IMG/VR virus record: IMGVR_UViG_3300032296_004087
Span: 53,136 to 117,135 of that record
DNA: 64,000 bases
Strand: one strand, 5' to 3'
Source: a virus
Shown here: piece by piece, positions 56,763 to 64,000 of the stretch
Numbering within the stretch: position 1 is the stretch's first letter
Layout of the letters: the number at the start of each line of letters is the position of its first letter
Position numbers and translations under genes: made by a program
Notes under the pieces: model-generated
The model's input: the letters and a program-made list of their open reading frames with translations, nothing else
Database searches by the model: none
What the model was told of the DNA's origin: nothing

Positions 56763-57467
56763 ATGTGGACAACTGAAGAACAAAGAATGTTAAACTTTCT
56801 GTGGAAATATGGAAAATCTGTGGGAAGAAAATATTTAAGATGGGACTTTAACTTTGATGATAACCCTTGGGACGAGCTGAATATTTCTGAAGAAGATTTT
56901 GACACTGATATGAATTTTATGGGGGAAAGTTTGACTATTCCAACAAAAATCAGAGATTTTCTTTTTAAATTCTATGAAGAAAAAATTGAACCTGAAGTTT
57001 TAGTAAGTTTTAATAAAATACTAAATACCATTGATTCTGATGAGGCATCAAATTATGAATTATCTATTATAATGGACCTACGGCAACGGAAAATTTCAGT
57101 AAATACGCAATTAGACTATTGGACTCAGAGTGATGAACAAATATTCGAGTTAGAACTCCCTGATGAGGTTTATGAATCTTTGATTGGTGTTATGGGTGAT
57201 AAAAAAATTCAACAAGTCGAGGTTTCATATGAAGGTAGTGGTGATAGTGGCGCAGTTTCGGATACTTTTATGGTTGAAGGTCAATATTTTGATACACCAC
57301 CCATAGTTGAAAGATTAATTGACCAAAATCTTCCTGGTGGTTGGGAAAATAACGAAGGTGCACAGGGTTTTGTTGTTTTTGATTTGGGAGACAAGTCTGT
57401 AACAATCAATCATGTTGAAAATATTTATGAAAGTGCTTCAGATACGATTTTGGAGTTTGATTTCTAA
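56763..57467 (+). CDS. Acidic hypothetical protein, 234 residues
   Basis: MWTTEEQRMLNFLWKYGKSVG with helical N-terminus, then a long acidic beta-rich region and late SDTFMVEGQYFDTPPIVERL. No family. Late promoter by sequence, but no [LI]-x-E tag at the start. Confidence 0.75.
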   Translation: MWTTEEQRMLNFLWKYGKSVGRKYLRWDFNFDDNPWDELNISEEDFDTDMNFMGESLTIPTKIRDFLFKFYEEKIEPEVLVSFNKILNTIDSDEASNYELSIIMDLRQRKISVNTQLDYWTQSDEQIFELELPDEVYESLIGVMGDKKIQQVEVSYEGSGDSGAVSDTFMVEGQYFDTPPIVERLIDQNLPGGWENNEGAQGFVVFDLGDKSVTINHVENIYESASDTILEFDF

Positions 57468-57498: not shown

Positions 57499-57584
57499 GC
57501 CTCGGTGGCGAAACAGGTAGACGCAAGGGACTTAAAATCCCTCGGACAGTAATGTCTGTGCGGGTTCGATTCCCGCCCGAGGTA
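57499..57584 (+). tRNA. tRNA-Leu (anticodon TAA)
   Basis: Acceptor GCCTCGG/CCGAGGT, D-arm, anticodon stem AGGGA/TCCCT with loop CTTAAAA, long variable arm, T-arm GGGTTCGATTCCC. Complete type II tRNA; CCA not encoded. Confidence 0.93.
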
Positions 57585-62229: not shown

Positions 62230-62314
62230 ATACACCTTTTGGGATGAAATGTGGAATGTTCCACCGAAACCCGAAGAACCTGAAACTAAACCTGAAAAAG
62301 AAAAAGAAATTTAA
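62222..62314 (+). CDS. Micro-protein, 30 residues
   Basis: MSEYTFWDEMWNVPPKPEEP then a Lys/Glu tail. Overlaps the upstream gene by 8 nt. Its stop TAA (62312-62314) lies inside the first strand of the RNase P P1 helix, so it and the RNA share DNA. Modest evidence of coding. Confidence 0.5.
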   Translation: MSEYTFWDEMWNVPPKPEEPETKPEKEKEI

Positions 62315-62542
62315 CAAAGTTCTATCGCTCTTAGGAGAGGAAACTCAGGACATCACACGCTTAAGGTGGGAGATATAAGGAAACAAACTTATAATGGTCA
62401 GTTATAAGTCCACATCCTTATATCGTTATTACCACCGAGGATGCAACCCAAAACAACCCACGACGGTGAGCTGGTCGGGTAAGGTGGGGGCAAATAGACT
62501 AATGATAGATTAAATACAGAATCCTGGTTATACTTTGTTAAA
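62310..62542 (+). ncRNA. rnpB: RNase P RNA, compact bacterial type
   Basis: About 233 nt. P1: TTTAACAAAGT (62310-62320) with ACTTTGTTAAA (62532-62542), 11 bp. P2: TCTATC (62321-62326) with GATAGA (62505-62510). P4: AAC-U-CAGGA (62342-62350) with TCCTG-GTT (62522-62529), including the universally conserved bulged U at 62345. The 5' core GAGGAAAC, J15/2-like GCAAATAG (62490-62497), and 3' ACAGAATCCTGGTTA match the bacterial consensus GAGGAAAGUCC, CAAAUAGG and ACAGAACCCGGCUUA. The specificity domain is a long AGATATAAGG/CCTTATATCG stem with an inner ACTTATAA/TTATAAGT hairpin. P3 is reduced. Catalyses 5' maturation of tRNAs, which surround it. Confidence 0.93.
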
Positions 62543-62624: not shown

Positions 62625-62696
62625 GACCCCGTAGCTCAGATGGTAGAGCAGTGTGTCTTAACATACGAGTCGGGCGTTCGAATCGCCTCGGGGTCA
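62625..62696 (+). tRNA. tRNA-Lys (CTT) with 6-nt anticodon loop
   Basis: Acceptor GACCCCG/CGGGGTC, D-arm GCTC-AGATGGTA-GAGC, T-arm GGGCG-TTCGAAT-CGCCT all canonical. The anticodon stem GTGTG/CATAC encloses only TCTTAA, one base short; CTT is read as the anticodon by comparison with lysine tRNAs (TCTTAA is positions 33-38). Variable loop GAGTC is normal, so the shortfall is confined to the loop. Confidence 0.75.
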
Positions 62697-62715
62697 CAAT
62701 AAACTAAAAATTGCT

Positions 62716-62946: not shown

Positions 62947-63435
62947 ATGACCCAAGAAGAATTACTAAATTTAATAAGACAACAGGAAAACCCCCTCCTT
63001 CTACTAGTGGGAACTTTAAACCTGTATAAAAAAGAAAATGGTTTCGAACAAGACTTGTTAACACCAGGATTTATTAAAGAATGGATGGTGTCTGAAATTC
63101 TCGACCATAAATGTCATAAGACAAAACATGGCGCTGATGCATATTCTAAGGACGGTAAAGAAAAGTACGAATACCTCTCTTGTAAAGAGGGGGGGACCTT
63201 TCAACTTGACAGAATCCACGAAGACAACCTTCATAGAGTCGAAAGAAACGATGCATTCTTTTTCGCCTTGTTTGATAAAAAGGATGGTCTAACTTGTAAG
63301 AATATTTGGAAATGTACAACTGACAAGGTTTTGGAAATTGTTAAAACCAAAATAGAGTCATCTAAGAAGAAATCTTCTAAACATGTTTCTATAAGTTTGT
63401 CTTGGGTTGAACAAAATTCAGAAAAAGTTTTTTAG
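62947..63435 (+). CDS. Hypothetical protein, 162 residues
   Basis: MTQEELLNLIRQQENPLLLL, then basic alpha/beta with Cys/His pairs (HKCHKTKH, CKEGG, CKNIWKC) that could bind zinc, ending ISLSWVEQNSEKVF. Located between tRNA-Met and the structured RNA. Could be involved in RNA biology by position, but no domain is recognised. Confidence 0.75.
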   Translation: MTQEELLNLIRQQENPLLLLVGTLNLYKKENGFEQDLLTPGFIKEWMVSEILDHKCHKTKHGADAYSKDGKEKYEYLSCKEGGTFQLDRIHEDNLHRVERNDAFFFALFDKKDGLTCKNIWKCTTDKVLEIVKTKIESSKKKSSKHVSISLSWVEQNSEKVF

Positions 63436-63462
63436 ACATTTGGTTTTATAAAAATGTCGACA

Positions 63463-63470
63463 TATATTTG
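63463..63470 (+). promoter_or_regulatory. Host-like -7 box TATATTTG before RNA cluster
   Basis: Precedes the unassigned structured RNA and downstream tRNAs. Confidence 0.72.
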
Positions 63471-63476
63471 TGGTGT

Positions 63477-63668
63477 TGTTAAGACATAAGGTCTTTGAAA
63501 TGTTAAAAACAAATAACGGTTGGTAGTAACAATGCGTGAGTTGACAGTATGGGAGAGCATATCGCAAGGGTACACACTAAGAATTTACCCTCTCTCTAAT
63601 GGTGTGTGAAGCTGGACTTCTTAAATGGGGTTAGGCGAGATTCCTGATAAAGTCAACTACTACCAACT
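63477..63668 (+). ncRNA. Unassigned structured RNA with pseudoknot
   Basis: No coding frame. After a leading hairpin AAGAC/GTCTT (63481-63495), a closing helix GTTGGTAGTA/TACTACCAAC (63519-63528 and 63658-63667) and GTTGAC/GTCAAC (63540-63545 and 63652-63657) enclose a core. The core has GGGAGAG/CTCTCTC (63551-63557, 63590-63596), GGTA/TACC (63569-63572, 63586-63589), a pseudoknot CACACTA/TGGTGTG (63573-63579, 63600-63606), and hairpin GAAG-CTGGA-CTTC. tRNA-Leu starts 5 nt later, so RNase P cleavage would define its 3' end. Not tmRNA, 6S or SRP RNA by features I know. Confidence 0.72.
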
Positions 63669-63672
63669 AAGT

Positions 63673-63753
63673 GCCGGTGTGGTGGAATGGTAGACACGGA
63701 TGCCTTAGGAGCATCTGCTTTTTAGCGTGGGGGTTCGAGTCCCTCTTCCGGTA
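63673..63753 (+). tRNA. tRNA-Leu (anticodon TAG)
   Basis: Anticodon stem GATGC/GCATC with loop CTTAGGA, long variable arm, T-arm GGGG-TTCGAGT-CCCT. The acceptor GCCGGTG/TTCCGGT has one mismatch and wobbles at its inner end. Confidence 0.85.
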
Positions 63754-63760
63754 CAAAAAT

Positions 63761-63858
63761 GGTGTGGTAGCTCAGGTGGAGTACTCATATGATACTCCCA
63801 TGGTAGAGCAAGTCCGTGAAAAAGACCGTGCCGCGTGGTTCGAATCCCGCTCACACCA
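63761..63858 (+). tRNA. tRNA-Phe-like (GAA) with hairpin inserted in the D-loop
   Basis: Acceptor GGTGTGG/TCACACC, D-stem GCTC/GAGC, anticodon loop GTGAAAA, T-loop TTCGAAT. The D-loop is 32 nt instead of about 8. It contains GGAGTA-CTCATATGA-TACTCC, a self-complementary insert bounded by TGG on both sides. The anticodon stem has two mismatches and the T-stem a bulged T. Either a disrupted tRNA or one that needs insert removal. Confidence 0.6.
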
Positions 63859-63889
63859 CAAAATGGAAAAAGTTTACATTTTATTATAG

Positions 63890-64000
63890 TCAGGTGGCGG
63901 AATGGTAGACGCTTAGATTTATACAAGAACAGGTCGTATGTTATGAATTACGATACTAAATGTATGGGTGTTTTTCACTTACAATACAATACAGGTTCGA
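63890..64000 (+). tRNA. tRNA-like RNA with expanded central region, cut by window edge
   Basis: Starts with a Leu/Ser-type 5' half (GGTGGCGGAATGGTAGACGC) and reaches a T-loop GGTTCGA at the window edge. About 75 nt lie between, more than a normal long variable arm allows. The interval has short stems TCGTA/TACGA and GTG-TTTTT-CAC. The 3' acceptor is outside the window, so completeness cannot be judged. Confidence 0.5.

Follow-up and report, generated by a model that had tools for sequence, protein, structure and literature searches.

In the present study, the right end of a 64,000-nucleotide (nt) stretch of viral DNA, called the window here (bases 53136-117135 of the 117,135-base virus record IMGVR_UViG_3300032296_004087), was found to carry a conserved structured RNA of about 149 nt between a promoter and a tRNA gene (Table 1). 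An initial annotation, made from the letters of the window, had described 63477-63668 as a promoter-driven, non-coding RNA with a long closing helix and a 7-base-pair (bp) pseudoknot. We found that the promoter is there; its motif, TTTG-N20-TATATTTG, we take from general knowledge to be of the Bacteroidota type. In its strict form this motif occurs 16 times in the 64 kb, both strands counted, and a near-identical promoter, at 57456, also lies upstream of the other tRNA pair of the window at 57499. The stretch is non-coding, as no open reading frame of at least 80 amino acids was found between the end of the preceding one at 63435 and tRNA-Leu(UAG). The closing helix is also present and ends 5 nt before this tRNA. 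As for the extent of the element, 63519-63667 proved to be conserved RNA, whereas 63477-63518 is a leader. The boxA-like TCTTTGAAAT of the leader resembles TCTTTGA elements in the Dysgonomonas rRNA leader and also upstream of the tRNAs of a relative.

Judged by natural sequence variation, the fold of the RNA is real and consists of three interlocking pseudoknots on the helices P1 and P1b. The 3' strand of P1b runs directly into that of P1, with P1b stacked on P1. The pseudoknot of the initial annotation exists (U63571-C63577 with G63602-G63608, one U.G included), but there are three crossing helices and not one, and the helix probably meant, PK2, is almost without covariation. PKa has 3 bp in the window copy and 4 bp in many homologues; a small stem within the PK2 loop, P4, is found in many copies and not in that of the window. 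The core of the family spans about 95-200 nt and holds the near-invariant unpaired nucleotides CAAGGGU, CUnAG, UnAUG, GUGAAG and GAUUCCUGAUAAA. In addition, the A.A/U.U covariation of 63579 with 63598 probably reflects a tertiary contact.

Table 1. Features of the structured RNA and its surroundings (positions in the window; paired strands are separated by a slash)
Feature	Position	Strand	Details	Basis
Bacteroidota-type promoter	63439..63470	+	TTTG 63439-63442, 20-nt spacer, TATATTTG 63463-63470	motif scan
Transcribed leader, outside the conserved RNA	63477..63518	+	boxA-like TCTTTGAAAT at 63492-63501	
Structured RNA, P1 to P1	63519..63667	+		covariance model R1, 128 bits, E about 1e-28 (copy in the training set)
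P1, closing helix	63519..63527 / 63659..63667	+	9 bp	covariation, 62 inferred double changes
PKa	63534..63537 / 63562..63565	+	5' strand GCGU; crosses P1b	covariation rank 19, 11 double changes
P1b	63539..63545 / 63652..63658	+	7 bp	covariation, 43 double changes
PB hairpin	63548..63561	+	4-bp stem 63548-63551/63558-63561, loop GGAGAG (6 nt)	covariation, 13 double changes
PK1	63552..63557 / 63592..63597	+	5' strand is the whole PB loop; 3' strand CUCUCU	covariation rank 29, 5 double changes
PK2	63572..63577 / 63602..63607	+	ACACAC with GUGUGU; crosses PK1	99% paired, almost invariant
A63579 and A63598	63579 / 63598	+	joint AA to UU change	covariation rank 18, 6 joint AA to TT changes
P5, variable hairpin	63612..63638	+		covariation rank 17
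GAUUCCUGAUAAA, highly conserved single strand	63639..63651	+		homologue alignment
tRNA-Leu(UAG), downstream of the structured RNA	63673..63754	+		ARAGORN and Rfam

The evidence for this fold comes from homologues, which were searched for by a neighbouring protein and by exact core words and accepted at a covariance model E-value below 1e-8. In a model-based alignment of 69 copies, 40 pairs were tested; they belong to seven helices and comprise three crossing sets. In this alignment 95.0% of the cells were paired, compared with 73.9% after shuffling and 29-51% with slid partners; both-sided (compensatory) change was seen in 31 of the 40 pairs, and the covariation score reached 0.558, compared with 0.161 after shuffling and 0.116 or less after sliding. 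Furthermore, when all column pairs of 86 copies were ranked by the G statistic with average product correction, the 13 highest were all pairs that the fold proposes in P1, P1b and PB. The pairs of PKa and PK1 ranked lower (Table 1); both helices are outside the covariance model and are therefore unbiased tests. The double changes inferred by parsimony, given by helix in Table 1 and zero for PK2, come to about 130 in total compared with 2-15 for slid partners, and these counts are approximate because the tree came from the same alignment as was tested. In P1, P1b, PKa, PB and PK1 the covariation of the homologues thus exceeds the shuffled, slid and tree-based controls by far. The main search pattern was free of these five helices; the first pattern also contained letters of PB and PK1 and added five loci, and the conservation of words used in searching is partly ascertainment. 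Since model R1 was trained on 52 sequences, the window copy among them, the score of this copy there is not an independent test. Minimum free energy folding of this copy was mildly better than chance (z = -1.6) and is uninformative alone; the weak z-score is due to the pseudoknotted fold.

Homologues were found on about 100 IMG/VR contigs, the smallest of a few kb and the largest of 508 kb, and each of the 13 searched records that carry the RNA has a single copy. The copy on a Crocinitomicaceae metagenome-assembled genome (MAG) contig (L098) is cut off by the contig end. Neither the window copy nor eight divergent homologues gave a match in Rfam 15 (4227 families), even at permissive E-values, in line with the initial annotation, which had left the RNA unassigned, and no earlier description of the RNA was found in open PubMed Central text. 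We believe that this RNA family is new, while phages bearing structured RNAs in tRNA islands were already known. That the RNA could be a diverged member of a class such as transfer-messenger RNA (tmRNA), 6S, signal recognition particle (SRP) RNA, RNase P RNA, group I intron or riboswitch is hardly credible, given the empty Rfam scan and the separate RNase P RNA in the window. The models of group I introns, 6S, SRP and riboswitches gave no match in the window and the eight homologues, and for tmRNA there was neither an ARAGORN prediction in the window nor an Rfam match above the cut-off. Bacterial RNase P RNA also has a helix crossing near its closing helix; the present RNA, however, is without the signatures of conserved regions I and V (CR I and CR V), and the RNase P RNA of the window lies about 1 kb upstream of it.

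In each of three bacterial samples, namely 395 genomes of Bacteroidota, 393 of the order and 101 of the family, the RNA was met once, and every time in the seed genome; this rarity is an estimate because the screens applied strict filters and scored few candidates in each genome. A Bacteroidota housekeeping RNA was rejected on these numbers (about 1 in 100-400 genomes, the seed genome only), and by its rarity among the genomes sampled the RNA is mobile. BLASTN against GenBank phages and plasmids returned no copy, the matches being short and by chance or none. Candidate copies in a Thermoplasmata locus (L101) and in five others (L102 and L104-L107) were rejected as chance pattern matches, and the weak covariance-model matches in two near relatives (G926 and G927) are without the core motifs and resemble coding sequence.

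The placement of the copies points to the tRNA transcripts as their source. In 37 of the 69 copies the RNA starts a few nt 3' of an upstream tRNA, and in 48 its end lies about 5-8 nt 5' of a downstream tRNA; the strand is always that of the tRNAs. In the nearest relatives of the window the RNA keeps its position, and elsewhere it takes other positions in the array beside other tRNAs. The co-transcription with tRNAs proposed by the initial annotation is thus supported in most homologues, and like that annotation we infer a processed, functional RNA. Not every copy lies in such an array. Those of two Bacteroidales genome contigs, from Dysgonomonas sp. 521 (L099) and a Tannerella MAG (L100), have no neighbouring tRNA and stand between a Bacteroidota-type promoter motif and an intrinsic terminator; the L097 copy also has no tRNA nearby, and the L094 copy likewise ends in a terminator. 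The relatives G926 and G927 have 24 tRNAs each and are without the RNA. A cis element for the processing or folding of its own tRNA transcript would account for the tight flanking by tRNAs, but it is very improbable, since there are the stand-alone copies L097, L099 and L100, the relatives manage 24 tRNAs without the RNA, and the flanking tRNAs differ between phages. The stand-alone copies and the absence of the RNA from these near relatives make it probable that phages carry it as an accessory RNA, released from tRNA transcripts and acting in trans, and not as a cis element of tRNA processing.

Some neighbours of individual copies deserve mention here. A two-gene cassette similar to the candidate defence system PDC-M29 (AAA_15 ATPase and small protein; L100:665-2384, +) lies directly downstream of the RNA in the Tannerella contig, and the Dysgonomonas copy adjoins a DUF5053 gene; these neighbours are suggestive of accessory cargo and of nothing further. 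A TnpB-like (OrfB_IS605) gene is found 0.7 kb from the L097 copy (L097:2322-3500, +). A TnpB guide RNA was considered and rejected, as this gene is divergent, lies at that distance and is missing in the other contexts read. In L103, a 22-tRNA array beside the RNA contains an ARAGORN tRNA with the anticodon CUA (labelled Pyl; L103:7045-7119), which is possibly an amber suppressor.

We put the probability that this is a phage RNA family derived from tRNA arrays, excised, folded and acting in trans, at roughly 0.6. In the mechanism that we propose, a promoter of the tRNA type would transcribe the RNA together with the tRNAs, and maturation of the flanking tRNAs would cut it out, by the 5' cut of RNase P at the downstream tRNA and by 3' trimming of the upstream one. 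Co-transcription and release of this kind would follow naturally from the tRNA-flanked placement. P1 would then join both ends of the RNA, and P1b, PKa, PB/PK1 and PK2 would compact the core into a triple pseudoknot that displays the near-invariant unpaired nucleotides. The freed RNA would most probably act in trans during infection, perhaps as a modulator or decoy docked to a conserved protein or ribonucleoprotein of the host or the phage; this docking mode of action is a guess, and one that we would sooner bet against than on. Excision and trans action alike are read from sequence and placement. Some observations weigh against the proposal as a whole: PK2 rests mainly on conservation and a single variant (ACCCAC/GUGGGU in L091), its invariance is partly ascertainment because some search patterns contained its 5' strand, and the complementarity of the RNA to the 16S rRNA and part of the 23S rRNA of Dysgonomonas was at chance level. 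The words GUACACAC and GUGAAGUCGU, which look like the 16S decoding region, were also rejected; such word lengths are expected by chance, and GUGAAGUCGU lies within the variable P5.

The fold also invites comparison with the ribozyme of hepatitis delta virus (HDV), whose P1 has 7 bp. A self- or trans-cleaving ribozyme with a nested pseudoknot of this type, which might free itself or the adjoining tRNAs, would explain why the strands follow the order PKa5'-P1b5'-PB hairpin-PKa3'-...-P1b3', corresponding to P1-P2-P3-P1'-P2' in HDV (PMC10879173 and in part general knowledge), and why the PB loop pairs downstream as HDV L3 does in P1.1. The dense invariant unpaired nucleotides would fit an active site, and the theta ribozymes, which are minimal HDV-like ribozymes beside phage tRNAs with about 90% of the predicted hosts in Bacteroidota (PMC10879173), set a precedent for the niche. 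The RNA shares with them this tRNA-adjacent niche, mainly Bacteroidota hosts and a nested pseudoknot; it differs from them in its short PKa, its enclosing helix and third pseudoknot, its stand-alone copies and a conserved core that is large and unrelated. The junction GAUUCCUGAUAAA, compared with HDV J4/2 and its catalytic C, has an invariant C, with no P4 to fix its position. However, no HDV family was matched in Rfam, the 3-4 bp of PKa contrast with an HDV P1 that starts at the cleavage site, several copies have no tRNA nearby, and both ends are enclosed by the closing helix of about 9 bp; a cut before PKa would therefore leave the 5' side held. We therefore regard such a ribozyme as quite unlikely.

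Covariation cannot distinguish pairing within a molecule from pairing between molecules, and PK1 could by analogy form between copies of the RNA in a homo-oligomerising scaffold. The packaging RNA of phage phi29 is a phage RNA whose loop pairing could be intermolecular. The PB loop has exactly six nt, all of them paired, as in kissing complexes, and the genomic niche is that of GOLLD and ROOL, which are pseudoknotted structured non-coding RNAs of phages and prophages, of unknown function and often near tRNA islands (PMC12286853). The present RNA is unrelated to these two. It resembles them in its tRNA-island location and its pseudoknots, but at about 149 nt it is much smaller (ROOL has 659 nt, and GOLLD often exceeds 800 nt; PMC12286853), its helices are different, and their Rfam models gave no match. 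From the phi29 RNA it differs by lying in tRNA arrays, with no sequence or Rfam relation and no packaging context seen. As there is no direct sign of multimers, we strongly doubt an oligomeric scaffold. More generally, a triple pseudoknot of about 150 nt with an invariant core might represent a catalytic or RNA-only effector class, with the core as an active site or a self-assembling machine directed against host translation or defence; we consider this unlikely.

Very few non-tRNA RNAs are known in phage tRNA islands, and this RNA joins them as a widespread class with deep covariation. The small size of its core brings it within reach of crystallography, cryo-electron microscopy of scaffolds, chemical probing by SHAPE and simple self-cleavage assays. 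Furthermore, deletion from a phage could reveal the role of tRNA-island RNAs, GOLLD and ROOL included, because this RNA is accessory, single-copy and missing from some near relatives.

Other RNAs were observed around it. The phage RNase P RNA reported nearby by the initial annotation is real, though weak to Rfam (62310-62542, +; RNaseP_arch at 35 bits, which is under the gathering score, with E = 8e-9 for a search of 301 bases), and its CR I, GAGGAAACUCAGGA, pairs with CR V, ACAGAAUCCUG, as the conserved P4. Similar matches below the cut-off were obtained in 3 of 47 related records (for example L111, L112 and L113), and for this reason the tie of the structured RNA to a phage RNase P RNA is not obligatory. 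At 63761-63858 (+) there is a 98-nt tRNA (33.7 bits) with an apparent extra D-loop hairpin, GGAGUACUCAUAUGAUACUCC, which is kept in L002 and L004 and is missed by ARAGORN. It is followed at 63887-64000 (+) by the beginning of another tRNA-like gene with a long insertion, interrupted by the window end. The tRNA at 62625-62697 (+) has an odd anticodon loop and is left unassigned by ARAGORN, which gives the two-letter anticodon 'ta' ('ctta' in L002). Finally, L092, L096 and L097 have in common a stretch GGUUUUU...UUUUUUCAAAAAAGAU upstream of the structured RNA, where a further hairpin could form.
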